64,000 nucleotides of DNA. It comes from a virus. The stretch spans positions 114,738 through 178,737 of the IMG/VR virus record IMGVR_UViG_3300024320_000003; one strand, 5' to 3'. Both the position numbers and the translations under genes were made by a program. Under the pieces are notes generated by a model that saw nothing but the letters and a program-made list of their open reading frames with translations, was not told the DNA's origin and made no database searches. Every line of letters starts with the position of its first letter. Positions within the stretch are counted from its first letter, which is position 1. Below are positions 1,737 to 62,831 of the stretch, one piece after another.

Positions 1737-1765
1737 TGAAACTATTTGTGATTTTTGTGTAGAAT
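1737..1765 (+). promoter_or_regulatory. Middle-type promoter (TGAAAC-N16-GTAGAAT) for the clamp operon
   Basis: TGAAAC at 1737-1742, a 16-base spacer, then GTAGAAT at 1759-1765, 27 bases before the clamp start. It belongs to a set of twelve sites with the same 16-base spacing in this window. The form resembles ECF-sigma promoters; use by the phage ECF sigma at 49276 is inferred. Confidence 0.6.
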
Positions 1766-1791
1766 AATAAACAAATAAAAATTATACATTC

Positions 1792-2547
1792 ATGAAAATT
1801 TCAATCAGTAAGGTCGATTCAAACAACTTCATCGGCTTCGTTAATAGACTTAAAGTAATTGATTCTTTTGTCTATTTTAAATTAAAAGATGGTGTCGTAC
1901 AGGCATCCGCTTATTTACCACAAAGAGATGCTGTTAAGCATCACAGAATGCCGATTTCTCAAGTTTTTCAAATCGAAGATGGTGAAATCTCTACAGACAA
2001 AGAATTAAAGATTGCATTCTTTGACGCTTCTAAAATAACAGATGCATTCAAACAATTTGACTATGATGCTATTTCAGCTGAAATCGAATTCGTTGAAAAC
2101 GAAGAAGATTGTGTTGCAACTACATTCAAAATATTTAATGATGAATTAGAAATTACACTTGCATGTTCAGAGCCATCTTTAGGTTATAAAGATCTAACTG
2201 ATGCACAGATTCAAGGTATCTTTAACACCGAAGCTTCTACTTTTAAATTCGATTTAGATTACACTTCACTTGCAAAGGTAAGAAACCTATTCTCTTTAGA
2301 TAAAGAAGAAACGTTCTCAATAAATGCAAACGGAAATGGTGTAAAGCTTTTAGGAAAAACCTACAACATGTTAGTAACACCAGATTATGACGGTGAATCA
2401 GGAACTAACGTTACATTATTCAAAAAATATCTTAACCTTTTAGATAAAGAAGATTACACTGCCCATGTATTAGACAATAGAGTAGTTCTTAGATCTAATG
2501 ATTCAGAAACTTTGCTAACGATTGCAACTTGCCAAACAGCAGAGTAA
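1792..2547 (+). CDS. 45: Sliding clamp, T4 gp45-like
   Basis: 251 residues, close to T4 gp45 (228). The start KISISKVDSNNFIGF and the beta-rich, acidic body fit the processivity clamp fold, but identity is weak by eye and the call leans on context: it directly precedes a family B polymerase part and shares a window with gp44, gp46/47, gp33-like and gp55-like genes. In T4 the trimeric clamp tethers polymerase and also activates late transcription through gp55 and gp33. It starts 27 bases after a middle-type promoter, and the polymerase part begins 3 bases after its stop. Confidence 0.8.
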   Translation: MKISISKVDSNNFIGFVNRLKVIDSFVYFKLKDGVVQASAYLPQRDAVKHHRMPISQVFQIEDGEISTDKELKIAFFDASKITDAFKQFDYDAISAEIEFVENEEDCVATTFKIFNDELEITLACSEPSLGYKDLTDAQIQGIFNTEASTFKFDLDYTSLAKVRNLFSLDKEETFSINANGNGVKLLGKTYNMLVTPDYDGESGTNVTLFKKYLNLLDKEDYTAHVLDNRVVLRSNDSETLLTIATCQTAE

Positions 2548-2550
2548 TTT

Positions 2551-3750
2551 ATGGATATAAACACACTAATTAACAAGCCCGAAGACGACCTTACACGGGA
2601 TGAAATGCAAACCTTGGCGGATCACTATCAAACAATGTCCGCCAAGTTTACTGCATACGAACAGGCCGTTAAAGTAACTCTTAACTCGATCTATGGTGCA
2701 TTTGGTAATAAGTGGTTTCACTTTTTTAATATAGACATTGCAGAATCTATTACACTACAAGGACAGAATGCAATTCTATATTCTGAAAAGATTCTTAATA
2801 AATATTTTCAAGAGTTTTGGCCTAAAGATACTGTGGTCCATGAACATTTCAATATTTCTATTAAGAATAAATTAGTAAGACCTTCCGTGGTTTATATTGA
2901 TACAGATTCATGTTACGTTCAGTTTGAAGAAATGTATGAATCTATTGAATGGCTAGGAGATAATAAACTACCAATTGATAAGTTTATTATGGAATTATAT
3001 ACGTTCAGAATCAAAGACTATATCACGAAATGTATGGCAAAGTATGCCGAAGTTACGAACACAGACAACTTTTTATATTTCGATTTAGAAACAATTGCAT
3101 ATTCAGGAATATGGTTAGCTAAAAAGAAATATTTACAAGACATTGCATGGGAAGATAAGCTCGAAGTAGACGATAGATACCCTTCTCTTAAGAAGATTAA
3201 GACGATTGGATTTGATACTATTCAATCTTCTACTCCTACATTAGCAAGAAAGCATTTGACTGAAGCTCTTAAATTGATTTTATCTGAAAAGCCAACTGCA
3301 GAGATGTTAAGTAGATTAGTTTCTTTTTTGAAAACGGCAAAGAAAGAGTTTAAGATGTCTAATGTTGATGAAATAGCTTTCAATAAAAGAACTAATAATA
3401 TTGAAAAATACATTGTAGATGATACGATAGAATTTCAATATGGTTTAAAATGTCCTCCGAACGTCAAGGCAGCAGGATTCTATAACTTCTTAATGAATCA
3501 GAATCCAAAATATAAAAACAAGTATAAAATGATTGGTAATGGCGAAAAGCTAAAATTATATCATTGTAAACATAATGTATGTGAAATGTATGCATATCAA
3601 CCAGGTGCCCATCCTTATGAAATTGCACCACAGGTAGATTATGAAACACAATTTGAAAAATCTGTAATAGATCCTATCAATAGAGTATTATCTTCAGTAG
3701 GTCTTCAGAGACTAAACAGAAATCTAATATATTCATCTTCATTATTCTAA
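2551..3750 (+). CDS. 43: Family B DNA polymerase, C-terminal part (split gp43)
   Basis: 399 residues that start just before polymerase motif B: KVTLNSIYGAFGN (residues about 41-53) matches the K-x3-N-S-x-Y-G signature. Motif C follows as YIDTDSCYV near residue 115, then the KKKYL motif near 190 and the thumb. The exonuclease domain and motif A (D-x2-SLYPS), together more than half of a T4-type enzyme, are absent, and the upstream gene is the unrelated clamp. It has its own ATG 3 bases after the clamp stop and no frame disruption, so it is a separate polypeptide rather than a broken gene. Split gp43A/gp43B genes are known from Aeromonas T4-like phages. It ends SSSLF, a possible clamp-binding tail. 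Confidence 0.92.
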   Translation: MDINTLINKPEDDLTRDEMQTLADHYQTMSAKFTAYEQAVKVTLNSIYGAFGNKWFHFFNIDIAESITLQGQNAILYSEKILNKYFQEFWPKDTVVHEHFNISIKNKLVRPSVVYIDTDSCYVQFEEMYESIEWLGDNKLPIDKFIMELYTFRIKDYITKCMAKYAEVTNTDNFLYFDLETIAYSGIWLAKKKYLQDIAWEDKLEVDDRYPSLKKIKTIGFDTIQSSTPTLARKHLTEALKLILSEKPTAEMLSRLVSFLKTAKKEFKMSNVDEIAFNKRTNNIEKYIVDDTIEFQYGLKCPPNVKAAGFYNFLMNQNPKYKNKYKMIGNGEKLKLYHCKHNVCEMYAYQPGAHPYEIAPQVDYETQFEKSVIDPINRVLSSVGLQRLNRNLIYSSSLF

Positions 3751-3761
3751 AAATAAACAAA

Positions 3762-3938
3762 ATGGATTTTAAAAGTAAAATAATAGAATTGGTTGAACAA
3801 ACCCCTAATAATTATGAATTAGGAGATAAGGTAAGAAAAATGATTTGGCCTTTAATTTTTAAAGAAAAAACAATTTCAAATGATCCTAAACAAATTAGTA
3901 TCTTTGACGAAATAGAAGAAAGAAAAAACAATGCTTGA
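3762..3938 (+). CDS. Small conserved-context protein, 58 aa
   Basis: ATG at 3762 after an A-rich leader (AAATAAACAAA), 58 codons, overlapping the next gene by 8 bases. The product starts MDFKSKIIELVEQ and ends EIEERKNNA. Its tight fit between the polymerase part and the coiled-coil protein, with an overlapping stop, supports it being real. The function is not recognised. Confidence 0.6.
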   Translation: MDFKSKIIELVEQTPNNYELGDKVRKMIWPLIFKEKTISNDPKQISIFDEIEERKNNA

Positions 3939-4119
3939 TCCAAATAATCTTACGGAAGAACAGAATGTATTTGTTGCAAAATACAAAACACTCTATAATA
4001 GGCTAGTTTCTCTTCAAGAAAAAATGGATTCTATGAAAAAGGAATCCGATGTTCTTATTAAAGAACTCGAAACACTAAGAAAACAAGAAAAAAACATATT
4101 TAAAAATGGCAAAAAATAA
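3931..4119 (+). CDS. Small coiled-coil protein, 62 aa
   Basis: 62 residues, almost entirely predicted helix with heptad-like spacing (LYNRLVSLQEKMDSMKKES). It overlaps the preceding small gene by 8 bases and the UvsX gene by 14, so the three are translationally linked. A recombination or replication accessory role is possible from position only; no family is recognised. Confidence 0.65.
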   Translation: MLDPNNLTEEQNVFVAKYKTLYNRLVSLQEKMDSMKKESDVLIKELETLRKQEKNIFKNGKK

Positions 4120-5215: not shown

Positions 5216-5526
5216 TGAAGTTGAACATAAACAAGATAAACGAAGATAAGCTTCCAATTAAATATATTCTGGGAATACAAGAAGAATTAGAATCTTTTCC
5301 CGATGCATTTGACATTATGCATATATTTATAACTAGAGCAGTGAGACAGCCTGACAGACAAAAGGCGTCTTTCACCAAACATGCTCTCAATAAATATTTC
5401 GCAAAGGGGAAAAATGAAAATGTAGAATCCGGATTAAATGAAGCAATTGGTATGGGACTAATAGAACAAACCAATTCGAACGAAGGTAAAGAAGCTTATA
5501 AAATATTAATTAACCCATTCCTATGA
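5215..5526 (+). CDS. Unknown protein, possible winged helix, 103 aa
   Basis: 103 residues; the ATG overlaps the uvsX stop. The second half (HALNKYF, then GLNEAIGMGLIEQT and a short strand) reads like a small winged-helix fold with helices followed by a beta wing. Position next to UvsX suggests a recombination or replication accessory, but no T4 counterpart such as UvsY is recognised. Confidence 0.65.
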   Translation: MKLNINKINEDKLPIKYILGIQEELESFPDAFDIMHIFITRAVRQPDRQKASFTKHALNKYFAKGKNENVESGLNEAIGMGLIEQTNSNEGKEAYKILINPFL

Positions 5527-10678: not shown

Positions 10679-10687
10679 GATATATAA
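10679..10687 (+). promoter_or_regulatory. Late promoter box GATATATAA
   Basis: GATATATAA starts 35 bases before the AAA+ gene start. The same box recurs at similar distances before most structural genes in the window, which suggests a gp55-dependent late promoter equivalent to T4 TATAAATA. Confidence 0.6.
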
Positions 10688-12054: not shown

Positions 12055-12948
12055 ATGGCTACATATAATCTTAAATATAACACGGACGATTCTGTAATTA
12101 GGCATATAATTATCGGTCTATTGGCAGACTTAAATAATAAAGTTTGGTTTCAAAGACAAGTAAGCGCTAATGAGAGAAAGGATATAGACGTTCCTTTTTA
12201 TTATTCGATCACAGGAGACGATCAATTTTTAAGAGATAATTTTCTATTTACAACAGCAAGTGGCGATGACTGCTACCCTGATCCTGGGTTTGCAGATGGA
12301 AATTACGATGTAATTCCAAGAGGAGTCGCTAGAATTTCTTCAATATCTATAGAATCTTCTAAACTAGTCAATAAAAGAATAATGGGAAATTATTCTAGAC
12401 TTGATGAAGAAGGAGCTCTACAAGCATATTCTTCTGAATTTGAAATGATTCCAATTTTAATAAATTTTGACATAGAAGTTTTAGTATCTTCAATGTTAGA
12501 TTCTTTAAAGATTACTGAAATGATAGTAAAGAAATTATATAAATCTAATTACTTTAACATAGAAGTAGGACATCTAGAAGAAGGAACGTACAGATTACCT
12601 TCGTATTATTCTTTACCGGATGATTATACAGTGGAGGCTCCAATAGATTTTGGATTCGACGATAAAGACAAATATAAAATAACATTTCCAATAGAAGTAA
12701 ATTCATTTATACCTTCTTTCTCAAACACGCCAGACGGAAATCCAGGTTCTGGATCATCTGGAGAATCTGGAGAATCTAGAGCATATAGATATGGTTCAGG
12801 TGGATCTTCTGAATTTCACGCTGGAAATAGGATGTTTGAAATAAAACAAAAATCAATTACATCTAATAAAGGAGAGGCAAAGGATGAGCAATCACAGGCA
12901 CAACCTGACAATCCTAACATAATTGATGAAAACGATACAGATATATAG
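12055..12948 (+). CDS. 15: gp15-like tail completion / sheath terminator protein
   Basis: 297 residues (T4 gp15 is 272). The N-terminal pattern of an Arg/His helix followed by WFQRQ, then DIDVPFYYS, and the IPRGVARISSISIES strand fit gp15. The middle FEMIPILINFDIEVLV and the closing Gly/Ser-rich and acidic tail also match the family layout. gp15 forms the hexameric ring ending the contractile tail and joins it to the neck. It follows the AAA+ gene by 3 bases. The call rests on pattern similarity by eye. Confidence 0.7.
   Translation: MATYNLKYNTDDSVIRHIIIGLLADLNNKVWFQRQVSANERKDIDVPFYYSITGDDQFLRDNFLFTTASGDDCYPDPGFADGNYDVIPRGVARISSISIESSKLVNKRIMGNYSRLDEEGALQAYSSEFEMIPILINFDIEVLVSSMLDSLKITEMIVKKLYKSNYFNIEVGHLEEGTYRLPSYYSLPDDYTVEAPIDFGFDDKDKYKITFPIEVNSFIPSFSNTPDGNPGSGSSGESGESRAYRYGSGGSSEFHAGNRMFEIKQKSITSNKGEAKDEQSQAQPDNPNIIDENDTDI
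12940..12948 (+). promoter_or_regulatory. Late promoter box GATATATAG overlapping the gp15-like stop codon
   Basis: GATATATAG includes the last codons and TAG stop of the gp15-like gene and starts 38 bases before the next gene, within the spacing of the other late boxes. Confidence 0.55.
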
Positions 12949-13781: not shown

Positions 13782-13810
13782 ATAAACTTTTTAACATTTT
13801 TGAGTATAAT
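13782..13810 (+). promoter_or_regulatory. Middle-type promoter (ATAAAC-N16-GTATAAT) for gp55
   Basis: ATAAAC at 13782-13787, exactly 16 bases, then GTATAAT at 13804-13810, 24 bases before the gp55 start. A T4-like TATAAATA also occurs at 13814-13821, which could add late expression. Confidence 0.6.
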
Positions 13811-13834: not shown

Positions 13835-14218
13835 GTGGCTAAAAGAAGAAAATCAAAAAACTATTTAAATAACAGAGACCTCTTTGATCAAATGGTCCTT
13901 TCAAAAGAACAGGATAAATTAACAAGAGATGCTGAAAAAATGCTAATTCTCTTGGCAGAAAAGGCGATCAATAGGATGAGGTATGTTAGTGAAGATGATA
14001 GGAACGATTGTCTACAATTCGCTATATTAGACCTTTTAAAATATTGGAGAAACTTCAATCCTAAATATCCAAATGCATTTGCTTATTTCACAGAGATAGC
14101 AAAGAGAGGATACGCCAAAGGATGGAATAAGATTCACCCTCAAAAATACAAAGGAACTCTATCTATAGACAAAGGATCAGGCAACTCTGAAAATCAAACA
14201 GGAATTTATAGCATCTAA
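13835..14218 (+). CDS. 55: Late-transcription sigma factor, T4 gp55-like
   Basis: 127 residues with a GTG start; no ATG lies nearby and the GTG follows an A-rich leader. The start KNYLNNRDLFDQM parallels the T4 gp55 start NYVNNKELLQAI, and the central FNPKYPNAFAYFTEIAKRGY parallels the gp55 region-2-like segment NFDETKYKNPHAYITQA. It directs RNA polymerase to late promoters. It is much shorter than T4 gp55 (185) and ends GIYSI, lacking the C-terminal clamp-binding tail (SLDFLYE in T4). It overlaps gp4 by one base and carries a middle-type promoter. Confidence 0.82.
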   Translation: MAKRRKSKNYLNNRDLFDQMVLSKEQDKLTRDAEKMLILLAEKAINRMRYVSEDDRNDCLQFAILDLLKYWRNFNPKYPNAFAYFTEIAKRGYAKGWNKIHPQKYKGTLSIDKGSGNSENQTGIYSI

Positions 14219-17337: not shown

Positions 17338-17347
17338 GATATATAAA
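17338..17347 (+). promoter_or_regulatory. Late promoter box GATATATAAA
   Basis: The box starts 33 bases before the protease-scaffold ATG, the commonest spacing in the set. Confidence 0.6.
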
Positions 17348-21085: not shown

Positions 21086-21105
21086 GTTTCGTTGAAACTT
21101 AAACA

Positions 21106-21114
21106 GATATATAG
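21106..21114 (+). promoter_or_regulatory. Late promoter box GATATATAG
   Basis: The box starts 41 bases before the inner head protein gene. A TATAAATA at 21125-21132, identical to the T4 late consensus, lies just downstream. Confidence 0.5.
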
Positions 21115-23050: not shown

Positions 23051-23079
23051 TGAAACAAAACAGCTATATTATGTATAAT
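23051..23079 (+). promoter_or_regulatory. Middle-type promoter (TGAAAC-N16-GTATAAT) for gp44
   Basis: Perfect match to the class: TGAAAC 23051-23056, 16-base spacer, GTATAAT 23073-23079, 17 bases before the clamp loader ATG. Confidence 0.65.
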
Positions 23080-24046: not shown

Positions 24047-24057
24047 TTGCTGAAATA

Positions 24058-24092
24058 TTTTTTTATCTCAGAAATTTTGCTTATATTAGTAA
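24058..24092 (+). promoter_or_regulatory. Early-type repeated promoter box, copy 1
   Basis: TTTTTTTATCTCAG followed by AAATTTTGCTTATATTAGTA, 16 bases before the RNase H start. It is one of seven near-identical copies. TATATTAG matches the Bacteroidota -7 element TAnnTTTG at all but one position. Confidence 0.65.
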
Positions 24093-24107
24093 TATAAAAC
24101 AAAACAC

Positions 24108-25334
24108 ATGAAACTAGGAAAACATACATTGTTAATTGACGGTAACTATTTTTTACACAGTAGACTATTCGTTCTACCTAGGCCTAAAGGTAAACAATTA
24201 TTAGGCGATAAAGAATCACAATCTCAACTTATGAGAAAGCTATGTATTGACTTCGCCTCAGAAGTTCGTAAAATGGCTCCTTTTGTAGACCAGATTGTTG
24301 TTGCAGTTGATGCTAAATCATGGCGTAAAGATCTTTTTCCTGATGCACAATATAAAGGAACTAGAACACATGACGATTCTATTAATTGGAAAGCAGTCTT
24401 CGGTGTTTATGCTGAATGGCAAAAAATACTAGAACAAAAGGGTATTATTATCCACCAGGTTCAAGGTGCAGAAGCAGATGATGTAATGTACGGCTGGTCT
24501 ACTCAATTAAATAGCGAAGGTAAAAATTGCATTGCATGGACAGGTGATAGAGATTTAATTCAACTCGTAAACTACAATCAAGCGACAGATGCATATACAC
24601 TATGGTATTATAATTCTAAGAAAAAGCTTATTGCCTTTGAAGGTTTCGAAGATGTAATGGCATCTAGAAAAACATCTACAATGACCAATGACGAATTGTT
24701 ATTCAACATTGCCTCAGAAGAAGCAACGTACGACAAGCTAAAGGAAGACTTCCAGGCATGGATGGATAAGAACAGAGTAGAAGTTCAAGAAATTAACTGT
24801 GACGACTTTGTATTCGGTAAAATCCTACAAGGTGACAAATCAGATAATATTCCTTCAGTTATTACATGGACTAAAGCTGCATCTAATGGCAAGATCAGAA
24901 ACTATTCACTTACAGAAAAACATTGTGTAAAGATCTTAGAACAATATAAGAAAGAAGAAAGCGAATTTACAATAGAACACTTTTTCAATAGAGGTCAAGT
25001 AAATAAGCTAGTAGATATTATTTATAGAGTTGTTGGTAAATCTGATCCTAAGGAAATCAGAATTAGATTTAATCAAAACTTAGATCTAGTTCTTCTTCAC
25101 TATAATACTATTCCCCTTGCAATTCAAAAAGGTATTTATAATAATATTGAAGCAGATAGAAATGTTTTACCAGAGTTCTCTAATATCACTCAGATGGAAA
25201 AGATCTTAGAAGGAACAGATTGGATGGCAAAGAAATCACAGGGTGCTCCTAAAAAGTATGATGCCTTCGCAGGATTAAAAGAAGATAGTAGCAAGGAAAG
25301 ACCTTCTACTAAGAAATTGAACGAACTTTTTTAA
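24108..25334 (+). CDS. rnh: RNase H / 5'-3' flap exonuclease (T4 Rnh-like)
   Basis: 408 residues, longer than T4 RNase H (305). FEN-family metal-binding acids are visible: LLIDGNYFLHS near the N-terminus, VAVDAKSWRKD, EADDVMYGWS, WTGDRDLIQL and GDKSDNIPSV. It removes RNA primers and flaps on the lagging strand. The C-terminus KKLNELF looks like a clamp-binding tail shared in form with the polymerase part and gp33-like protein. An early-type box precedes it, unlike gp44 upstream. Confidence 0.92.
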   Translation: MKLGKHTLLIDGNYFLHSRLFVLPRPKGKQLLGDKESQSQLMRKLCIDFASEVRKMAPFVDQIVVAVDAKSWRKDLFPDAQYKGTRTHDDSINWKAVFGVYAEWQKILEQKGIIIHQVQGAEADDVMYGWSTQLNSEGKNCIAWTGDRDLIQLVNYNQATDAYTLWYYNSKKKLIAFEGFEDVMASRKTSTMTNDELLFNIASEEATYDKLKEDFQAWMDKNRVEVQEINCDDFVFGKILQGDKSDNIPSVITWTKAASNGKIRNYSLTEKHCVKILEQYKKEESEFTIEHFFNRGQVNKLVDIIYRVVGKSDPKEIRIRFNQNLDLVLLHYNTIPLAIQKGIYNNIEADRNVLPEFSNITQMEKILEGTDWMAKKSQGAPKKYDAFAGLKEDSSKERPSTKKLNELF

Positions 25335-25362
25335 TAAACTTATAGCAAGTTTACAGTATAAT
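25334..25362 (+). promoter_or_regulatory. Middle-type promoter (ATAAAC-N16-GTATAAT), near-leaderless
   Basis: ATAAAC 25334-25339, 16 bases, GTATAAT 25356-25362. The next ATG is only 4 bases after the -10-like element, so a transcript would begin at or very near the start codon. Confidence 0.5.
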
Positions 25363-30976: not shown

Positions 30977-30985
30977 GATATATAG
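30977..30985 (+). promoter_or_regulatory. Late promoter box GATATATAG
   Basis: Starts 41 bases before the sheath ATG. Confidence 0.55.
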
Positions 30986-34319: not shown

Positions 34320-34349
34320 TGAAACTAAAATATAATATAATGATATAAT
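34320..34349 (+). promoter_or_regulatory. Middle-type promoter, variant spacing
   Basis: TGAAAC 34320-34325 and ATATAAT 34343-34349, one base longer than the usual 16-base spacer. The following ATG is only 3 bases downstream, so a near-leaderless transcript is implied. Confidence 0.4.
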
Positions 34350-34577: not shown

Positions 34578-35549
34578 ATGAGCAAAGACAAAAACAAAAA
34601 AGAAGAAGAAATCAATTTAGACGATCAATACAAAGCTATTGTTGAAGCTAATGAGAACGAATCTTCAGTAGAATCAGAAGAGCCTAAGAATTTAGGTAAA
34701 GTTGATATGTCTAGATTTCAACCAGCTGAAGCAAAGGAAGCTGATTTTCATTTAGGATATCATTCAGTTAAAATAGATTCACTACCGTCAGGTGGAATGT
34801 TCTATACTCCAGATACTGAAATTTCTATTAGATCTGCAAAGGTTGCAGAGATTAGACATTTCTCTACCATGGACGAAACCAACATTCTAGATGTAGATGA
34901 AAAATTAAATGCTATAGTAGAGTCATGTCTTAGAATAACTTCTAAGAAAAAAAGACTTTCATATAAGGATATTTTAGAAGAAGATAGATTTTGGTTAATT
35001 TTAGCAATCAGAGATTTAACTTTCCCTGAGCCTGAAAATGCATTAACTGTTAAGTATCAAGATAAGAGAGGTGTTTCTCACGATGCATCAATTGATAAGA
35101 AATATTTTCAATACTTTTCTATTCCAGAAGAATTAGATAAATATTACGATCAAGATAAAAGAACCTTTATTATTGAGACAAAATCATTTGGTAACATTGA
35201 AATGAGACCTCCTACAATTGGTCTAATGCAAAAGGTTACTAAGTATATTAAAGAAAAGCAAGAAAAGGGATTACAGGCTGATCAGTCTTTAATTCAATTA
35301 ATTCCATATCTATATACAGATTGGAGAGGCTTTGATGATAAATCAATCTTTAATTTTGAAGTAGAATTAAACGGATGGAACAATAGAAAATATGCTTTAG
35401 TATATAAACTCGCTGAAAAAATGAAAGTCGGAATTCAACCTGAGATGTTGGTAACGCATGAGGATGACGAGGTCCTCGTTCCGATTGGGTTTCGTGACGG
35501 AATCAAATCTATTTTCCTTGTTCAGGATATCGCTGGAGAACTTCTTTAA
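34578..35549 (+). CDS. 26: Baseplate hub assembly protein, gp26-like (T4_baseplate family)
   Basis: 323 residues, longer than T4 gp26 (208) owing to an acidic N-terminus. The motif series IDSLPSGGMFYTPDTEISIR, ILDVDEKLNAIVESCLRI and EDRFWLILAIRDLTF is that of the T4 baseplate/gp26 family. It follows the tail tube after a short regulator gene. The gene ends CTT CTT TAA inside a second open frame that continues as a tail-chaperone-like sequence, raising the possibility of a +1 frameshift product. Confidence 0.78.
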   Translation: MSKDKNKKEEEINLDDQYKAIVEANENESSVESEEPKNLGKVDMSRFQPAEAKEADFHLGYHSVKIDSLPSGGMFYTPDTEISIRSAKVAEIRHFSTMDETNILDVDEKLNAIVESCLRITSKKKRLSYKDILEEDRFWLILAIRDLTFPEPENALTVKYQDKRGVSHDASIDKKYFQYFSIPEELDKYYDQDKRTFIIETKSFGNIEMRPPTIGLMQKVTKYIKEKQEKGLQADQSLIQLIPYLYTDWRGFDDKSIFNFEVELNGWNNRKYALVYKLAEKMKVGIQPEMLVTHEDDEVLVPIGFRDGIKSIFLVQDIAGELL

Positions 35550-39396: not shown

Positions 39397-39425
39397 TGAA
39401 ACAACCCCCTCTTATTTAGTATAAT
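39397..39425 (+). promoter_or_regulatory. Middle-type promoter (TGAAAC-N16-GTATAAT)
   Basis: Perfect match: TGAAAC 39397-39402, 16 bases, GTATAAT 39419-39425. It starts one base after the preceding stop and lies 43 bases before the next ATG; it also precedes the tRNA-Ser/tRNA-Asp pair. Confidence 0.65.
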
Positions 39426-40012: not shown

Positions 40013-40037
40013 AAGCACATGAAACATTGTGCTTTTT
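40013..40037 (+). terminator. Short terminator after tRNA pair
   Basis: Stem AAGCACA (40013-40019) with TGTGCTT (40028-40034) followed by T residues. It overlaps the next promoter, so both signals share bases. Confidence 0.65.
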
Positions 40038-40048
40038 GGGGGTATAAC
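40020..40048 (+). promoter_or_regulatory. Middle-type promoter (TGAAAC-N16-GTATAAC)
   Basis: TGAAAC 40020-40025, 16 bases, GTATAAC 40042-40048. The -35-like element sits in the loop of the preceding terminator hairpin. Confidence 0.5.
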
Positions 40049-40069: not shown

Positions 40070-40306
40070 ATGAGAAAAGTACACAGAGGTAGTCGAGGAA
40101 TGGTTGCTGGAGTATGTGATGGTTTAGGATATTATTTTGGAATTGATCCATTAATATTTAGACTTTTATTCACATTAGCATTCTTTACACCTACAATTCC
40201 AGCAATATTAATATACATTATATTTTGGATAGTAATACCAGCAAATAAAAAAACAAAAACAAATGACAAGAGCGCAAATAGTTCAAAAGCTACTAGACGA
40301 AAATAA
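40070..40306 (+). CDS. PspC-domain membrane protein, 78 aa
   Basis: 78 residues. The start KVHRGSRGMVAGVCDGLGYYFGIDPLI is a classic PspC signature (G-V-GGLA-YFGIDP), followed by a hydrophobic helix (FFTPTIPAILIYIIFWIVIP) and a basic tail. In bacteria PspC domains sense or respond to envelope stress; in a phage it may protect or modify the host membrane. It overlaps the next small gene by 44 bases. Confidence 0.85.
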   Translation: MRKVHRGSRGMVAGVCDGLGYYFGIDPLIFRLLFTLAFFTPTIPAILIYIIFWIVIPANKKTKTNDKSANSSKATRRK

Positions 40307-41878: not shown

Positions 41879-41905
41879 AATAATTTGAAAATAATTGCCT
41901 AAATA

Positions 41906-41946
41906 TTTTTTTATCTCAGATATTTTGCTTATATTAGTATAGTAAT
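41906..41946 (+). promoter_or_regulatory. Early-type repeated promoter box, copy 2
   Basis: TTTTTTTATCTCAG then ATATTTTGCTTATATTAGTA then TAGTAAT, 20 bases before the next ATG. Confidence 0.7.
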
Positions 41947-43184: not shown

Positions 43185-43195
43185 ACAGCCTAGAA

Positions 43196-43236
43196 TTTTT
43201 TTATCTCAGATTTTTTGCTTATATTAGTAGAGTAAT
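43196..43236 (+). promoter_or_regulatory. Early-type repeated promoter box, copy 3
   Basis: TTTTTTTATCTCAG then ATTTTTTGCTTATATTAGTA then GAGTAAT, 21 bases before the next ATG; preceded by AAATAAACAG as in four other copies. Confidence 0.7.
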
Positions 43237-44155: not shown

Positions 44156-44347
44156 ATGATAACTTATCTATTTATTGGGGTAATTTATTCTTTTATTATG
44201 CACCTTTCATGGGATCATCATAGAAGAAATGATAAAAACTTTGGATTAGAAAAGTGGACACTTAAAGAATCTTTGGTATTAACGGTAATTTGGCCACTAT
44301 ACCTTCTATATTTCATTTATTCTTTTTTTAAAGGATTAGGAGATTAA
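44156..44347 (+). CDS. Small two-helix membrane protein, 63 aa
   Basis: 63 residues with hydrophobic helices at each end (YLFIGVIYSFIMHLSW and VLTVIWPLYLLYFIYSFF). Begins one base after the previous stop. Function unknown; a membrane effector is possible. Confidence 0.6.
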   Translation: MITYLFIGVIYSFIMHLSWDHHRRNDKNFGLEKWTLKESLVLTVIWPLYLLYFIYSFFKGLGD

Positions 44348-44372
44348 ACTTTTTATAAAACTCATATATAAT
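44344..44372 (+). promoter_or_regulatory. Middle-type promoter (TTAAAC-N16-ATATAAT), near-leaderless
   Basis: TTAAAC 44344-44349, 16 bases, ATATAAT 44366-44372. As at 25367, the start codon begins 4 bases after the -10-like element. Both elements are variants, so this is a weaker member of the class. Confidence 0.45.
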
Positions 44373-46008: not shown

Positions 46009-46246
46009 ACCCACAAAAGAAATGAGAATTAATCCACTTTCCTTACAGGAGGGAGGATCTACAGTAACGGTGATTTACGATAATTACGCCGTTGAATTTA
46101 CAAACATTAAATCTCCTTATTCGTATATTTCTTCTATTCGCTTTGCTAAACGCAATGATATTTCTCTTAGAGGTTTTTTAATAAACGGTGAAGTATATGA
46201 CATGTGTAGTGGTAATAAAGAAACAAAAATAAATAAATCAGTATAA
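45995..46246 (+). CDS. Unknown protein, 83 aa
   Basis: 83 residues, beta-rich (STVTVIYDNYAVEFTNI), with SLRGFLINGEVYDMCSG near the end. It overlaps the previous gene by 14 bases and lies 6 bases before the epimerase. Function unknown. Confidence 0.55.
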   Translation: MKVYRPTKEMRINPLSLQEGGSTVTVIYDNYAVEFTNIKSPYSYISSIRFAKRNDISLRGFLINGEVYDMCSGNKETKINKSV

Positions 46247-46252
46247 TATTAT

Positions 46253-49205: not shown

Positions 49206-49209
49206 AAAG

Positions 49210-49250
49210 TTTTTTTATCTCAGATATTTTGCTTATATTAGTATAGTAAT
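49210..49250 (+). promoter_or_regulatory. Early-type repeated promoter box, copy 4 (ECF sigma gene)
   Basis: TTTTTTTATCTCAG then ATATTTTGCTTATATTAGTA then TAGTAAT, 26 bases before the sigma ATG; preceded by GAAAATAAACAGTAAAAAG. Confidence 0.72.
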
Positions 49251-49275: not shown

Positions 49276-49875
49276 ATGGCTACCTACAAACAACTAACTC
49301 AAAACTTTCTAGAAACAGGATCAGATCAAGACTTCGCAGCTCTTTACAACAAGATAAAGCCAGGTCTAACTTCGTACATTTACAAAATAGTTAAAGATCG
49401 TGAAATGGCAGAAGACATTGCAGTAAACACATTAACTAAGATGTGGACCAAAATAGAACAATATAACCCAAGTTACGGAATTACTACTTGGTTATATAGA
49501 ATCGCATTTAACGACTCTTTAGGTTATATTAAAAAAAGAAATCAAACTACGTCTTTGAGTAAATTATCAGAATATGGTGTAGAAGTAAGTGGCACTGGAT
49601 CAGTTTCAAATACTCTAAAAGATTTAGTCTTAGATCATGAAGAAAAAACTGAACAAGATTATCTAGAAGAAGATGACGCTCTTCAAGACAAATACATTAA
49701 AACTCTAGAAGCTATGCAAAATCTAAAAGAAATGTATAGAGATATTCTAGTAGACAGAATGGTAAATCATATGAAATATGACCAACTAGCAACTAAATAT
49801 AAACTTCCACTGCAGACTATTAAAAATAGAATTCGTAGAGGTAAAGCTTTAATCGTTGAAGCTGTAGAAAAATAA
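49276..49875 (+). CDS. ECF-type RNA polymerase sigma factor
   Basis: 199 residues. Region 2 is clear: KDREMAEDIAVNTLTKMWTK (about 38-57) and YGITTWLYRIAFNDSLGYIK (about 68-87); a linker precedes region 4 (about 150-199: YRDILVDRMVNHMKYDQLA, then KLPLQTIKNRIRRGKALI). There is no region 1 or 3, as in ECF sigmas. It would redirect host RNA polymerase. The gene has the early-type box, and the window holds twelve TGAAAC-N16-GTATAAT-like sites, a form typical of ECF promoters, so it likely drives middle genes including gp45, gp44 and gp55. Phage ECF sigmas are unusual. Confidence 0.9.
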   Translation: MATYKQLTQNFLETGSDQDFAALYNKIKPGLTSYIYKIVKDREMAEDIAVNTLTKMWTKIEQYNPSYGITTWLYRIAFNDSLGYIKKRNQTTSLSKLSEYGVEVSGTGSVSNTLKDLVLDHEEKTEQDYLEEDDALQDKYIKTLEAMQNLKEMYRDILVDRMVNHMKYDQLATKYKLPLQTIKNRIRRGKALIVEAVEK

Positions 49876-50310: not shown

Positions 50311-50314
50311 AAAG

Positions 50315-50355
50315 TTTTTTTATCTCAGAAATTTTGCTTATATTAGATAAGTAAT
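50315..50355 (+). promoter_or_regulatory. Early-type repeated promoter box, copy 5
   Basis: TTTTTTTATCTCAG then AAATTTTGCTTATATTAGAT then AAGTAAT, 15 bases before the next ATG; preceded by GAAAATAAACAGTAAAAAG. Confidence 0.7.
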
Positions 50356-53024: not shown

Positions 53025-53057
53025 ATTTCATTTTTTTTGAAAATAAACAGCTAAAAG

Positions 53058-53098
53058 TTTTTTTATCTCAGAATTTTTGCTTATATTAGTAGAGTAAT
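53058..53098 (+). promoter_or_regulatory. Early-type repeated promoter box, copy 6
   Basis: TTTTTTTATCTCAG then AATTTTTGCTTATATTAGTA then GAGTAAT, 21 bases before the next ATG; preceded by TTGAAAATAAACAGCTAAAAG. Confidence 0.7.
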
Positions 53099-54658: not shown

Positions 54659-54687
54659 TGAAACAAACACACCCTCCCTGATATAAA
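54659..54687 (+). promoter_or_regulatory. Middle-type promoter (TGAAAC-N16-ATATAAA) for the tRNA cluster
   Basis: TGAAAC 54659-54664, 16 bases, ATATAAA 54681-54687. It follows a terminator and precedes a tiny gene and four tRNAs, so it probably starts the tRNA transcript. Confidence 0.55.
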
Positions 54688-54821: not shown

Positions 54822-54907
54822 GCTCGAGTGGTGGAATTGGTAGACACGATGGACTTAAAATCCATTGAGCAGTAATGTTCGTGCGGGTTCAAGTCCCGCC
54901 TCGAGTA
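54822..54907 (+). tRNA. tRNA-Leu(UAA)
   Basis: Acceptor GCTCGAG (54822-54828) pairs with CTCGAGT (54900-54906, one G-U); D arm GTGGAATTGGTAGACAC; anticodon loop CTTAAAA gives UAA; long variable arm; T arm GCGGGTTCAAGTCCCGC. Confidence 0.95.
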
Positions 54908-54914
54908 CAACATA

Positions 54915-55026
54915 GAAAAGCAAGAGATAAAGGTAAACTCCATATACACTATGGTCCGGCCGAAACAGCGTATCAAATTCTAACAAGGAGACTGACGAGT
55001 CTCGCGCTTAAGGGTAGCTTCTTTTC
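54915..55026 (+). ncRNA. Structured RNA candidate inside the tRNA cluster
   Basis: About 112 bases without an open frame. GAAAAG-C-AAG (54915-54924) pairs at long range with CTT-CTTTTC (55018-55026). Inside are CCATA (54940-54944) with TATGG (54950-54954), AGCG (54967-54970) with CGCT (55005-55008), and a 6-bp hairpin GAGACT (54988-54993) with AGTCTC (54998-55003). It is not a tRNA and I do not recognise the class. Co-transcription with the tRNAs is likely. Confidence 0.45.
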
Positions 55027-55061
55027 TTTATAATTCACAAATCAAATTAAACTTAACGAAT

Positions 55062-55135
55062 GGACTAGTAGCTCAGCTGGATAGAGCATCGCCCTTCTAA
55101 GGCGACGGTCGTAGGTTCGAATCCTACCTGGTTCA
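55062..55135 (+). tRNA. tRNA-Arg(UCU)
   Basis: Acceptor GGACTAG (55062-55068) pairs with CTGGTTC (55128-55134); D arm GCTCAGCTGGATAGAGC; anticodon loop CTTCTAA gives UCU, reading AGA, a very common codon here; T arm GTAGGTTCGAATCCTAC. Confidence 0.95.
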
Positions 55136-55139
55136 CAAT

Positions 55140-55212
55140 GATCTCTTAGCTCAGTTGGTAGAGCATCACACTTTTAATGTGAGGGTCCAGGGTTCGAGCC
55201 CCTGAGGGATCA
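55140..55212 (+). tRNA. tRNA-Lys(UUU)
   Basis: Acceptor GATCTCT (55140-55146) pairs with AGGGATC (55205-55211); anticodon loop CTTTTAA gives UUU; T arm CAGGGTTCGAGCCCCTG. Confidence 0.95.
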
Positions 55213-55221
55213 CGAATATAT

Positions 55222-55295
55222 ACTCTTGTAGCTCAATCGGTTAGAGCAGGATCCTTATACGGTCAAGGTTACGGGTTCAAGTCCCGTCGAGAGTA
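55222..55295 (+). tRNA. tRNA-Ile(UAU)
   Basis: Acceptor ACTCTTG (55222-55228) pairs with CGAGAGT (55288-55294); D arm GCTCAATCGGTTAGAGC; anticodon stem GGATC/GGTCA (outer pair G-A mismatched) with loop CTTATAC, anticodon UAU reading AUA directly. T arm ACGGGTTCAAGTCCCGT. Most bacteria read AUA with a lysidine-modified CAU tRNA instead, so a UAU tRNA is notable. Confidence 0.88.
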
Positions 55296-55304
55296 CCCTT
55301 TAAT

Positions 55305-55555: not shown

Positions 55556-55888
55556 ATGTACAAGAAGGAAATAATAAAATTATGGAATCATTTTAAAAGG
55601 TGGTTTATTTCTAAAGTCTTAAAAAAGAAGATAACATTTACAAGTGACGATTGGACAGGAGAAGTAGAAGTGTACTATTATAAAGGTGAAACTAGAATGA
55701 CATGGTCTAGGGGAAATAACGCAATGCCAGATGGTGTTAGAAATAGAGCGTTTATCTTTTGCCATTCAGATACTGCACGTCATATACCTGAAGGATATTG
55801 CAAGTTCTTATACACTATAATAATACCAGAAGGATGGACAAACTCTGGAGAACAGTTTACGGTAACTAGGTATATTAAACATTCTTAA
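55556..55888 (+). CDS. Unknown protein, 110 aa
   Basis: 110 residues. A basic amphipathic N-terminus (IIKLWNHFKRWFISKVLKKK) is followed by a beta-rich domain with WTGEVEVYYYKGETRMTW and FIFCHSDTARHIPEGYC. No family recognised. It lies 8 bases after the TIGR03643 gene. Confidence 0.6.
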   Translation: MYKKEIIKLWNHFKRWFISKVLKKKITFTSDDWTGEVEVYYYKGETRMTWSRGNNAMPDGVRNRAFIFCHSDTARHIPEGYCKFLYTIIIPEGWTNSGEQFTVTRYIKHS

Positions 55889-55907
55889 AATTTGGAGTAT
55901 AAATACC

Positions 55908-56614: not shown

Positions 56615-56643
56615 TGAAACATTTATATTTAGATGAATATAAT
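56615..56643 (+). promoter_or_regulatory. Middle-type promoter (TGAAAC-N16-ATATAAT) for phosphomannomutase
   Basis: TGAAAC 56615-56620, 16 bases, ATATAAT 56637-56643. It overlaps a possible upstream start codon at 56633 and so favours translation from the ATG at 56663. Confidence 0.55.
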
Positions 56644-58679: not shown

Positions 58680-58688
58680 AGACACTCT

Positions 58689-58697
58689 GATATATAC
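58689..58697 (+). promoter_or_regulatory. Late promoter box GATATATAC
   Basis: Starts 33 bases before the next ATG, the same spacing as several structural genes, suggesting late expression of the following gene. Confidence 0.5.
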
Positions 58698-58721
58698 CCT
58701 AAACAAAATTATAACCAAAGA

Positions 58722-59210: not shown

Positions 59211-59230
59211 TCTATTTTATAGTATATCAG

Positions 59231-59257
59231 AAGGGAATAAAGCAATTTATTCCTTTT
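59231..59257 (+). terminator. Rho-independent terminator
   Basis: An 11-bp stem from AAGGGAATAAA (59231-59241) with TTTATTCCTTT (59246-59256), ending in T residues. Confidence 0.8.
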
Positions 59258-59300
59258 TGGGGACTAAATTGAAAATAAATTGAAAATAAACAGCTAAAAG

Positions 59301-59341
59301 TTTTTTTATCTCAGATTTTTTGCTTATATTAGTATAGTAAT
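59301..59341 (+). promoter_or_regulatory. Early-type repeated promoter box, copy 7
   Basis: TTTTTTTATCTCAG then ATTTTTTGCTTATATTAGTA then TAGTAAT, 17 bases before the next ATG; preceded by a doubled TTGAAAATAAA and CAGCTAAAAG. Confidence 0.72.
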
Positions 59342-59358
59342 AATCAAACAAACAAAAT

Positions 59359-59682
59359 ATGTCAAACATCCTAACATTCGTACTTAGAAACTCTATGGGA
59401 GATTCAACAAACAATGGTCTATCTTCAAGAGAAGACTCTATTATTCTGCACTATGGCCCTGATGCCGATTTAGCAGATTTAACCTTAATTCCAGATGATG
59501 AATTGGTTTTAGTAGAAAGACAGCTATTCGGAAAGGAAGCATGGTATGCAGTTCCTGCCGGATTATACAAGAACAATAAACACACAATGTTTGGCGGCAA
59601 TTTTATTCACACTTCAGACTCAAGATTTCCATCTTCTGCACCAATTGCAGTTCATGACAGAGTAGAATCTAATAACTATTAA
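59359..59682 (+). CDS. Unknown protein, 107 aa
   Basis: 107 residues, beta-rich, with the segments SREDSIILHYGPDADLADLT and FGGNFIHTSDSRFPSSAPIA. First gene after an early-type box and one base before the ligase gene. No family recognised. Confidence 0.6.
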   Translation: MSNILTFVLRNSMGDSTNNGLSSREDSIILHYGPDADLADLTLIPDDELVLVERQLFGKEAWYAVPAGLYKNNKHTMFGGNFIHTSDSRFPSSAPIAVHDRVESNNY

Positions 59683-59683
59683 T

Positions 59684-60976
59684 ATGAAAGAATTAAAACT
59701 TACACAAGAATTTGTAAACGAATCTAATTCAACAAATTCAAACACGGACAAGATTAACGTAATTAAGAAGTATTCTAATCAACCAGATGTTCTTAAAGTG
59801 CTGCAGTATACATACGACACGTTTAAACAGTATTATGTTACTTCAAAAAACTGTAAGAAGAGAAGTGATCTAGTGCTTCCTTTCGGATCTTATACTGATA
59901 TCTTCTCTTTGTTAGATGCATTGAGTTCTCGACAAATAACTGGTCATTCTGCGATTGAAGCGGTAAATACATTTGTAGAAGAGAATAAAGAATACTCTGA
60001 TCTTATTTGGAATATCATTGACGGAAACCTAAAAACTAGGTCAACTATTTCTATGATTAATAAAGTTGTACCGGGTTTAATTCCAACCTTTGACGTAGCA
60101 CTCGCTCAAGCGTATGACGAAAAGACTAAAAAGAAAGTAGATTGGAATGACGGATGGTATGTTAGTCGTAAACTAGATGGTGTTAGATGTCTAGCAATTA
60201 TTGATGATAAAGGAGATGTTAATTTCTATAGTAGAGCAGGAAAAGAATTTACAACACTAGATTCTTTGAAACCTTCTATCCAAAGATTAGGTCTTACGAA
60301 TATGGTGTTTGATGGTGAAGTTTGTATGGTAGATGAAAATGGAAATGAAGATTTCCAAGGTATCATTAAGCAAATTAAAAGAAAAGATCATACTATTACA
60401 AATCCATTTTATCATATCTTTGATTTATTGACCATTAAAGAATTTAACGATAAAGAATCTATTACCTCTTTTAGTGAAAGACAATCTAACCTTAGAGCGT
60501 ATGTTCTAGATGGCGATCAATTTATTAGCCACCTTGTTCAAATGTTAGGAGATGATCTTGTAATGGAAAGAATGATGGAACTATCGAAAGAAGGAGGATG
60601 GGAAGGACTAATGCTTCGTAAGAATACAACATACCAAGGAAAACGTTCTAGTGATGTTCTTAAGGTTAAGAAATTCTATGATGATGAATATTATGTAGTT
60701 GATTTAGAGAATGCTCTTAATAGAGTTATCGTTGACGGGAAAGAAGTTGAAGAAATGATGCTTAAGAATGTTGTAGTTGAACATAAAGGAAGTAGAGTTC
60801 AGGTTGGTTCTGGTTTTTCACATGAACAAAAAAGATTTTATTTTAAAAATCCTGATAAAATTCTAGGAAAGCAAATCACTGTTCAATATTTTGAAGAAAC
60901 TACAAATCAACATGGAGAACATTCACTTAGGTTCCCTGTGATCAAAGCGGTTTATGAAACAGAGCGTACCTTTTAA
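59684..60976 (+). CDS. 30: ATP-dependent DNA ligase
   Basis: 430 residues (T4 gp30 is 487). The adenylation motif I KLDGVR (SRKLDGVRCLA, about residue 160) is followed by motif III FYSRAGKEF, MVFDGEVCM (motif IIIa/IV region), GLMLRK (motif IV/V) and KVKKFYDDEYYVVD, then the OB domain. It seals nicks in replication and repair. The N-terminus KELKLTQEFVNES resembles the capsid-targeting-like starts of head proteins here, but T4 ligase also has an ILNE start, so this may be coincidence. Confidence 0.95.
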   Translation: MKELKLTQEFVNESNSTNSNTDKINVIKKYSNQPDVLKVLQYTYDTFKQYYVTSKNCKKRSDLVLPFGSYTDIFSLLDALSSRQITGHSAIEAVNTFVEENKEYSDLIWNIIDGNLKTRSTISMINKVVPGLIPTFDVALAQAYDEKTKKKVDWNDGWYVSRKLDGVRCLAIIDDKGDVNFYSRAGKEFTTLDSLKPSIQRLGLTNMVFDGEVCMVDENGNEDFQGIIKQIKRKDHTITNPFYHIFDLLTIKEFNDKESITSFSERQSNLRAYVLDGDQFISHLVQMLGDDLVMERMMELSKEGGWEGLMLRKNTTYQGKRSSDVLKVKKFYDDEYYVVDLENALNRVIVDGKEVEEMMLKNVVVEHKGSRVQVGSGFSHEQKRFYFKNPDKILGKQITVQYFEETTNQHGEHSLRFPVIKAVYETERTF

Positions 60977-60999
60977 ATATAATTAATTAAATCCCATAT

Positions 61000-61692
61000 A
61001 TGACAATAGTTTTAGGAGACGGTTTATTAGCATCAGAACTTATAGGACAAACAGGATGGTCTTATATTTCAAGAAAACAGGACTTTTTAAATTTTAATAG
61101 TCTTAGTAGTGTTATTAATTTAATTCCAAAGGACTGCACTACGATAGTCAATTGCATTGCATACACAGACACCTATTCTGATGATAAATCTAAAATGCTT
61201 CAAACTAATTATCATTCAGTTGCAAACTTGGCTGAATTCTGTAATCATAGAGGAATAAAACTAATTCACTATTCTACAGATTACGTATATGCTGGTTCAA
61301 ATCCAAATGCAAGCGAAGAAGATATTCCTATTCCTGATAAAACATGGTATGCATATTCTAAATTATTAGCAGACGAGCATATCATTAGACATTCAGATGA
61401 TTATCTAATCGTAAGAGGGAGTCACAGAATTAATCCATTTCCTTATGCAACTGCATGGAACGATCAGATAGGAAATTTCGATGATGTAGATGTATTAGTA
61501 AATCAGTGGATCAAGCTAATTAAAGCAGAGCAGAAAGGTGTATGGAATATAGGAACACCTTCGAAGAGCGTATATGAATATGCATCTAGAGAAAAAGATG
61601 TTGATTCAGCACCTGCCCCTGATCATTTCCCAAAGGATACGACAATGGATCTTACGAAACTTAATGTATTTTTAAAAAATTATGAAATATAA
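61000..61692 (+). CDS. dTDP-4-dehydrorhamnose reductase-like SDR (RmlD family)
   Basis: 230 residues, shorter than RmlD (about 290). A Rossmann start IVLGDGLLASELIG, the TTIVNCIAYTDTYSDD strand (NCAAYT-VD in RmlD), LIHYSTDYVYAG (STDYVF) and YAYSKLLAD (Y-x3-K) are RmlD hallmarks. It would reduce the 4-keto sugar after RmlC. The C-terminal substrate domain is shortened. Confidence 0.85.
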   Translation: MTIVLGDGLLASELIGQTGWSYISRKQDFLNFNSLSSVINLIPKDCTTIVNCIAYTDTYSDDKSKMLQTNYHSVANLAEFCNHRGIKLIHYSTDYVYAGSNPNASEEDIPIPDKTWYAYSKLLADEHIIRHSDDYLIVRGSHRINPFPYATAWNDQIGNFDDVDVLVNQWIKLIKAEQKGVWNIGTPSKSVYEYASREKDVDSAPAPDHFPKDTTMDLTKLNVFLKNYEI

Positions 61693-61828
61693 ATCAATAA
61701 CAGATCATATATGGCGATGTGGATGTGGCTCAATGAATTCTCCTTATTTAGAAAAATGTGGATTCTGCGGCACTGATAATAAAAATCACAATGCGTTTAT
61801 AGAAACAAATTCTCAAAAAGAAGTATAA
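61682..61828 (+). CDS. Small zinc-ribbon protein, 48 aa
   Basis: 48 codons from ATG 61682, overlapping the reductase end by 11 bases. WRCGCGSMN and EKCGFCGTDN place two cysteine pairs (C-x-C and C-x2-C) as in a zinc ribbon. Probably binds nucleic acid or protein; function unknown. Confidence 0.6.
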   Translation: MKYKSITDHIWRCGCGSMNSPYLEKCGFCGTDNKNHNAFIETNSQKEV

Positions 61829-61833
61829 ACTAC

Positions 61834-62118
61834 ATGGCAAGAGAAATAAAGTTAACAGTATGCTCGGGTTGTATCGAAGATTTTCCAGATGGAGATTTAT
61901 ATACAGTAACGAGATACATGAATAGATCACTACCCGATAAGACTAATATGTATTCTACGCCATATTGTGAAACTTGTATCAAAAAAGACAAAGACGGTTA
62001 TGTAGATATTAAACTTGAACCTAAAAACGTTTTAAAGGAAAGAGCAAAGAAAGAAAAAGAAGCACTTAAGGCAAAGGAAGCAAAAAAGAAAGCAGCACTC
62101 AAAAAGAAAAAGAAATGA
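61834..62118 (+). CDS. Cys-pair protein with Lys-rich tail, 94 aa
   Basis: 94 residues. VCSGCIEDFP and YCETCIKKDK provide two C-x2-C pairs for a zinc-binding site; the last 35 residues are nearly all Lys, Ala and Glu. Likely nucleic-acid associated. It overlaps the KTSC gene by 4 bases. Confidence 0.65.
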   Translation: MAREIKLTVCSGCIEDFPDGDLYTVTRYMNRSLPDKTNMYSTPYCETCIKKDKDGYVDIKLEPKNVLKERAKKEKEALKAKEAKKKAALKKKKK

Positions 62119-62348
62119 TAACAACACAAACTAACTTATACGACTCTTCGACTATTGTATCGTCTTCATATATTTATAAGACAAAGGAATTATATGTTGG
62201 ATTTAAACATGGAACTTATTTATATAAAGAAGTAGAAGAAAACGACTACCATGCCTTTAGAGATGCAACATCACAGGGAATTGCCCTTAATAATATAATT
62301 AAAGGTGTGTATAAATACGAGAAAATAGAAGAAGAACATGCAAAATAA
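62115..62348 (+). CDS. KTSC-domain protein, 77 aa
   Basis: 77 residues. SSSYIYKTKELYVGFKHGTY then KEVEENDYHAFRDATSQGIA and LNNIIKGVY follow the KTSC domain pattern, small proteins often linked to lysyl-tRNA synthetase or RNA functions. Role in the phage unknown. It overlaps the next gene by 11 bases. Confidence 0.8.
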   Translation: MITTQTNLYDSSTIVSSSYIYKTKELYVGFKHGTYLYKEVEENDYHAFRDATSQGIALNNIIKGVYKYEKIEEEHAK

Positions 62349-62805
62349 GAGAACCGGAATTACATGCTCTACATTTGATCTGTTTCATGCAGGTCATGTA
62401 AAGATGCTAGAGGAAGCTAAGAAAGAGTGCGATTATCTAATAGTTGCTTTACAAACAGATCCCTCAATTGATCGACCTGATTCCAAGAACCCTCCTATCC
62501 AGTCTTTAGTCGAAAGATACATTCAAGTTAAGGCTTGTAGATATGTAGATGAAATAGTCCCTTACCAAACTGAAAAGGATCTCGAAGATATTTTCGCAAG
62601 TTTCGATATTGATTGTAGAGTAATAGGTATCGAATATAAAGATAAGAATTTTACAGGAAAAGATACATGTGTAAAGAGAGGAATCGAGATCATATATAAT
62701 AAAAGAGATCATGGTTTTTCAAGCACAGAACTCAGAAATAGAGTATGGGAAGTAGAGCATGTAAAAAGTTTAGAATTAATTGAAAAAAAATTCAATAAAA
62801 GTTGA
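62338..62805 (+). CDS. Cytidylyltransferase-like nucleotidyltransferase (TagD/RfaE type)
   Basis: 155 residues. TCSTFDLFHAGHVKMLEEAK holds the HxGH motif (HAGH), and HGFSSTELRNRV the ISSTxLR motif of the family. It would activate a phosphorylated sugar or polyol with CTP or ATP, for example glycerol-3-phosphate or heptose-phosphate. It adds to the nucleotide-sugar genes (RmlC, RmlD-like, SDR, PMM). A middle-type promoter begins at its stop. Confidence 0.88.
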   Translation: MQNKRTGITCSTFDLFHAGHVKMLEEAKKECDYLIVALQTDPSIDRPDSKNPPIQSLVERYIQVKACRYVDEIVPYQTEKDLEDIFASFDIDCRVIGIEYKDKNFTGKDTCVKRGIEIIYNKRDHGFSSTELRNRVWEVEHVKSLELIEKKFNKS

Positions 62806-62831
62806 AACTAAATTAAAGATATTGGTATAAT
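62803..62831 (+). promoter_or_regulatory. Middle-type promoter (TGAAAC-N16-GTATAAT) for the histone-like gene
   Basis: Perfect match: TGAAAC 62803-62808 overlapping the preceding stop, 16 bases, GTATAAT 62825-62831, 36 bases before the ATG. Confidence 0.65.

Follow-up and report, generated by a model that had tools for sequence, protein, structure and literature searches.

Several phages are known to pass from early to middle and late transcription by exchanging or modifying σ factors. T4 retains the host σ70, together with AsiA and MotA, for middle transcription, and in SPO1 the host σ factor serves the early genes, gp28 is the middle σ factor and gp33/gp34 act late. This SPO1 order, a phage middle σ factor and then a late one, is documented (PMC9429907), and in phiEco32, phage 7-11 and Kuravirus a phage σ factor of the extracytoplasmic function (ECF) type directs middle promoters, its own gene being read first from host promoters (PMC7881722, PMC4331800, PMC5333181). 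A review of jumbo phages places σ factors in T4-like group 2, and searching its text for ECF returned nothing (PMC7824862). Here we analyse a stretch of 64,000 nucleotides (the window), bases 114738-178737 of the 178,737-base IMG/VR virus record IMGVR_UViG_3300024320_000003, which encodes an ECF σ factor and carries repeated sites of the form TGAAAC-N16-GTATAAT. We consider it probable that a clade of large T4-like phages, with hosts of the Bacteroidota type, runs a three-step σ cascade and that these sites are its middle promoters. The T4-like character of the phage is indicated by its predicted gp44-type clamp loader, gp55-type late σ factor and tail sheath genes, and Bacteroidota are the presumed hosts of the clade. 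The clade is referred to as the G000 clade, and the genomes of it that were compared include G000, G007, G044, G049 and G050. The record is 67% A+T and carries 196 of its 205 called genes on the + strand; coordinates below are those of the window, and features lie on the + strand, unless stated.

The motif is genuine, directional and restricted to a single spacing. An earlier note on this DNA had listed twelve sites, all of which were found where it had placed them, with a 16-base spacer in 10 and perfect matches to TGAAAC-N16-GTATAAT at 23051, 39397 and 62803; its consensus for the first element, T(G/A)AAAC, is corrected here to (T/A)(G/T)AAAC. In the window, 33 matches with at most 2 mismatches were obtained against 10.9 expected, and shuffled sequences reached at most 19. 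When TGAAAC and TATAAT were each allowed up to one mismatch and the distance k between them was varied genome-wide, the sole peak lay at k=17, that is, N16-GTATAAT, where 18 intergenic + strand matches lie; other spacings gave 0-9 and the - strand 2. A spacing of 18 to TATAAT forms a minor peak only. A whole-genome scan with a position weight matrix built from relatives returned 28 noncoding matches on the + strand of the 178.7-kb record and 1 on the - strand, against a mean of 0.25 and a maximum of 3 for 200 column-permuted matrices. Unsupervised de novo expectation maximisation (EM) ranked the same motif first. On the clade, unmasked EM drifted to an early promoter class, which was thereby exposed, and block-masked EM parted this early class from the ECF-type class, whose form across the clade is TGAAAC-N16-(G/A)TATAAT. 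About 30 ECF-type sites are present across the whole record, and the motif recurs in phages with σ genes 44-100% identical: loci with a σ factor at 49-58% and 60-66% identity hold 65 and 30 intergenic matches at the right gap, over backgrounds of about 8 and 7, and motif and σ factor are conserved together in whole records of relatives too. As a separate observation, the -10 box ends 4-5 bases before the predicted ATG in 6 of the 28 ECF-type sites of the record (those at 44344, 25334, 46219, 55875 and 61801 among them) and lies equally near it in 2/24 and 3/23 sites of two relatives, implying leaderless mRNAs, an unusual choice of start site or misplaced start codons.

The genes behind these sites are consistent with a middle programme, as ECF-type sites precede predicted replication, nucleotide-metabolism and late-σ genes. 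The site at 13782..13810 stands before the gp55-like gene and is found in 22 of 26 distinct orthologue upstream regions (0 on the reverse strand), and that of the clamp loader gene 23096 (23051..23079, a perfect match) in 27 of 39, again with 0 on the reverse strand; both sets of loci were mostly outside the matrix training set, and early promoters precede none of the gp55 and clamp loader orthologues. Other first genes behind ECF-type sites encode thymidylate synthase, dCMP deaminase, a gp32-like single-stranded DNA-binding protein (SSB), an endonuclease, a DprA-like protein and sugar epimerases. Two head-type families, the head maturation protease and the minor coat protein, also follow ECF-type sites, the latter having a late-type GATATATA site as well, and because of them the functional split between the classes is strong rather than absolute.

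Ten of the twelve sites first listed stand. Besides those of the gp55-like gene and the clamp loader, they are 1737..1765, before gene 1792 of 251 amino acids (score 12.7; present in both orthologues found); 25334..25362, before gene 25367 (28/43 orthologue upstream regions, 1 on the reverse strand); 39397..39425, before gene 39469 (perfect, score 17.9); 40020..40048, before the PspC-domain gene 40070 (score 17.7; PspC 6.6e-18); 44344..44372, before the Fpg/Nei gene 44377 (score 15.5; 11/26 orthologue upstream regions); 54659..54687, before the tRNA cluster 54822-55298 (score 16.2); 56615..56643, before a phosphomannomutase (PMM) gene (score 17.4; 2/3 orthologue upstream regions; PMM 4.1e-29); and 62803..62831, before the Hc1 histone-like gene 62868 (perfect, score 17.9; PF07432 8.6e-23), whose L214 orthologue also has a site. 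Four had been overlooked: 46219..46247, before the sugar-epimerase-like gene 46253 (score 16.7; PHROG 540); 55875..55903, before gene 55908 (score 14.7); 60955..60983, before the RmlD/epimerase gene 61000 (score 17.4; PF04321 3.5e-20); and 61801..61829, before gene 61834 (score 15.4). The two remaining sites fared less well. That at 34320..34349, with a 17-base spacer, is a doubtful member of the regulon, with an ECF-type site in 0 of 6 orthologous upstream regions. The 'hybrid' at 21093 contains a late-type element, GATATATA at 21106..21113, and was rejected as ECF-type: the gene behind it, 21147, lacks an ECF-type site upstream in 18 of 18 distinct relatives, and GATATAT is present in 10 of the 18. 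As to the genes named in the note, gp55, the clamp loader, Fpg/Nei, PMM, the tRNA cluster and the Hc1 histone were confirmed, but the clamp assigned to gene 1792 was not. A gp62 assignment of gene 24108 likewise went unconfirmed. Further observations on genes of this set are that the histone H1-like Hc1 protein is encoded at 62868-63050, that the PspC-domain gene (40070-40306) directly follows a tRNA pair and the ECF-type site, and that a protein with an MGS-like (methylglyoxal synthase) domain lies behind an ECF-type site at L014:6094-6486.

The σ factor proposed to read these sites, a protein of 199 amino acids encoded at 49276..49875, was recognised as an ECF in the earlier note, and Pfam, TIGR02937 and the predicted fold all bear this out. 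Its only Sigma70 regions are 2 and 4 (Pfam Sigma70_r2 8.8e-11, r4_2 4.8e-6), with neither σ1.1 nor σ3, as in the group 4 (ECF) factors, and it scores 62.0 bits against a cut-off of 42.9 for TIGR02937 (sigma70-ECF); Sig70_bacteroi1 matches at 6.1e-21, yet under its own cut-off. An AlphaFold2 model displays the two-domain σ2+σ4 fold of σE and SigW, with helices spanning residues 17-99 and 126-198 and a low-confidence segment at 101-122, and agrees with region 4 of σE on DNA to 0.8 Å root-mean-square deviation. Nearly all of the 25 matches in the PDB at E<=0.001 are ECFs, the closest in sequence being SigW, which reads TGAAACxTTT through T168, K170, T171, R172 and R175 (PMC6713349). At these five positions the phage protein has T, K, N, R and R, T171 being replaced by N. 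The σ factor of LR756500, 33% identical, has all five residues as in the clade phage, and LR756500 has a sharp GAAAC-N17-TATAAT peak (14 matches, 13 of them intergenic, versus 1; the other strand has 0 intergenic sites). That of Lak-C1, in which R172 is replaced by Y and R175 by K, belongs to a phage without the motif, and G052, where K170 is replaced by A, has only 5 sites. This covariation of residues and motif, in a small comparison, agrees with the σ factor reading the -35 box. Within the record, only the ECF and gp55 genes match Sigma70_r2, and a search of genome contigs found no bacterial relatives of the ECF. A phage ECF does not necessarily come with a cognate anti-σ factor.

The early class takes the form TTTTTTTATcTCAg ... 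TATATTAG or TATATTTAC in the clade and comes close to the Bacteroidota element TAnnTTTG as published (PMC6847099). One such promoter stands before the ECF gene (49208..49247, with the -7 element TATATTAG at 49234-49241; score 33.4), and with a matrix trained partly on loci later scored with it, an early promoter was found before the σ gene in all 47 distinct clade loci. An ECF-type site precedes the σ gene in only 1 of the 52 loci scored. On the reverse strand the early matrix exceeds its threshold in only 2/52 loci, and the group at 35% identity scores below it. Early promoters also precede the 5'-3' exonuclease gene 24108 (24056..24095, score 30.4; 40/47 orthologue upstream regions) and genes 41966 (41904..41943, score 34.2), 43257 (43194..43233, score 32.8), 50370 (50313..50352, score 26.6), 53120 (53056..53095, score 30.6) and 59359 (59299..59338, score 32.9). 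In this record the early promoter is a near-identical unit of about 65 bases in about a dozen copies. The unit, which resembles a dispersed cassette, occurs at record positions 34955, 40829, 41265, 108416, 138793, 156641, 157931, 163945, 165050, 167793 and 174036, and on the - strand near 1547; in the relative G049 (L207-L215, record 45458-143418), the promoter is preceded by a fixed TTGTTCGTAACTTT box in nine early-type units.

The third class, GATATATA, was counted 71 times in upstream regions across three genomes, where 7.4 copies would be expected, and precedes genes for the head protease and for the sheath and fibre of the tail. It resembles the T4 late box, TATAAATA. Examples in the window are the late promoters of the tail sheath gene 31018 (30977..30984), of the head maturation protease-like gene 17371 (17338..17345) and of genes 10714 (10679..10686) and 12978 (12940..12947), as well as the element before gene 21147 mentioned above. 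The gp55-like late σ gene lies at 13835..14218 (PHROG 234 'late sigma transcription factor', 9.3e-11). The presumed late box varies by lineage, being GATATATA in the G000 clade and TATACATA in the phage PAU (L192-L196).

The middle σ gene thus lies under a host-type early promoter, and middle promoters lie before the late σ gene, which is the arrangement expected of a cascade. The three promoter classes, the genes assigned to each, their conservation, and the family and fold of the σ factor are demonstrated by the sequence analysis, from which we infer which protein reads which class, and in what order. In the first step, host RNA polymerase with its primary σ factor would transcribe early genes, including the ECF gene 49276, from host-type promoters. 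The ECF would then take over the host core polymerase, its σ4 helix reading TGAAAC at -35 and its σ2 the (G/A)TATAAT region, and would turn on replication, nucleotide, sugar and repair genes together with the gp55-like σ factor. Finally, gp55 would guide the core enzyme to the GATATATA promoters, those before head and tail genes. In this scheme the place held by MotA/AsiA in T4 would fall to the ECF. Five lines of evidence support the proposal, made in the earlier note, of a middle regulon under the phage ECF: the early promoter at every distinct σ locus, the classes of genes behind the sites, the separate late class, the failure to detect MotA or AsiA, and a σ factor of σ2+σ4 ECF type with SigW-like -35-reading residues. 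Profiles of MotA and AsiA gave nothing above cut-off in G000, G007, G044, G049, G050 or PAU, and recovered the T4 proteins at 3.2e-63 and 2.3e-43. Reading of the sites by the ECF is well supported but unproven.

Several points weigh against it, above all the case of PAU, a phage of Sphingobacterium (PMC3738902). PAU carries about 58 near-identical promoters, TGAAAC-N16-GTAnnAT, and neither profile search nor the recognition-helix pattern revealed an ECF in it, so that the motif alone is no proof of ECF use; it is mainly because of PAU that our confidence is not higher. No clade member lacking the σ factor could be demonstrated, since records without it may be fragments, and motif and σ factor could therefore be co-inherited without functional linkage. 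The SigW form cited in the note, TGAAAC-N16-CGTA, has one base more between the AAC of the -35 element and GTA, and the overlap between training and scored loci bears on the early-promoter count. What PAU does encode is gp1 (L192:94-1182, NC_019521), an RpoS-like σ factor whose annotation, internal capsid vertex protein, suggests delivery with the virion, and a gp55-like protein, gp112; the EM search found no host-type early class there. Given the same promoters without an ECF, either gp1 came to read the same code or a shared factor does. That one promoter set is read by the ECF in the clade and by the unrelated, possibly virion-carried gp1 in PAU, the promoter code outliving its reader, is a tentative proposal that we consider rather unlikely; if true, phage lineages would have swapped σ factors and either kept the promoter set or rebuilt it independently. 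The σ factor of MA9V-1 is related to gp1, and MA9V-1 lacks the motif. At up to one mismatch the motif is absent from T4, Lak-C1, PTm1, MA9V-1 and MA9V-2, and S-SSM7 has a single match. In MA9V-1, no further promoter class that its RpoS-like σ factor might use was found, the AACGTTC repeats there looking like hairpins.

PAU also lends weight to the improbable alternative that a host σ factor reads the sites, be it a host ECF or the primary σ factor with a phage activator bound to the TGAAAC box in the manner of MotA, the phage ECF having another role. Bacteroidota hosts encode ECFs, and a Bacteroides genome among the controls was positive for Sigma70_r2. However, the Bacteroidota primary -7 element TAnnTTTG (PMC6847099) forms a separate class in these phages, an activator of the MotA or AsiA type did not exceed the profile cut-off, and MA9V-1, MA9V-2 and PTm1, which infect Bacteroidota, lack the motif. 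The gp55-like σ factor, or another unrecognised phage factor, might instead read the sites and leave the ECF a small or different regulon. The presence of gp55-like proteins in both PAU and the clade parallels the shared motif, but the natural target for gp55, by analogy with T4, is the distinct late class before virion genes in each lineage; moreover, the gp55 gene itself sits behind ECF-type sites, and MA9V-1 and MA9V-2 have a weak gp55-type region-2 match without the motif. We regard this alternative as very improbable. As for chance matches without promoter function, the base composition of the genome favours them, and some weak intragenic sites surely are of this kind, but the strand asymmetry (28 versus 1), the single-spacing peak, the behaviour of permuted matrices and the retention of sites before orthologous genes leave this explanation a negligible probability, and a chance origin of the strong intergenic sites is already refuted. 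The middle promoters are best attributed to the phage ECF.

Should this attribution hold, T4-like phages, the textbook case of takeover by appropriation of the host σ factor, would include a widespread aquatic clade that seems to have replaced the middle step with an ECF. The three-step promoter code would make the expression class of many genes assignable from sequence alone, and the σ factor and its promoter could offer an orthogonal pair for Bacteroidota, in which E. coli-type promoters fail. With PAU for comparison, it becomes possible to test which lasts longer in a viral programme, the promoter sets or their σ factors. To the author of the earlier note, an ECF-driven middle regulon would have been new. 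Phage regulons under an ECF already occur in phiEco32 and phage 7-11; their combination with the T4-like programme appears undescribed: searches of the open-access literature, which leaves out most subscription papers and preprints, found no description of this system. It appears that large T4-like phages of a marine family turn on their replication genes with their own ECF, itself made early from a host-type promoter, which then turns on the late-σ gene.

Compared with the known systems, the proposed cascade runs in the SPO1 order, early genes being left to the host σ factor and a middle and then a late σ factor coming from the phage, but its middle σ factor is of the ECF type, its late σ factor is gp55-like and the phages are T4-like (gp44, gp55, tail sheath). 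Promoters of phiEco32-type phages combine an extended -10 (TGATGT-type) with the lack of a recognisable -35, and a single σ factor serves both middle and late genes, whereas the clade has a canonical SigW-like -35 TGAAAC at fixed spacing and a separate late σ factor. The MotA/AsiA system of T4 occupies the same place in the programme and governs similar genes (clamp loader, SSB, nucleotide enzymes, gp55), although neither protein is detectable by profile in the clade. The resemblance to Bacillus subtilis SigW extends to the top PDB sequence match, the -35 consensus TGAAACxTTT and most contact residues, and ends at about 18% identity (structural match), the T171 to N replacement, a longer -10, GTATAAT, and a spacing one base shorter. 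Finally, the promoter of PAU is almost identical and likewise has a 16-base spacer, but PAU differs in lacking an ECF, in having the RpoS-like gp1 and in its late motif, TATACATA.

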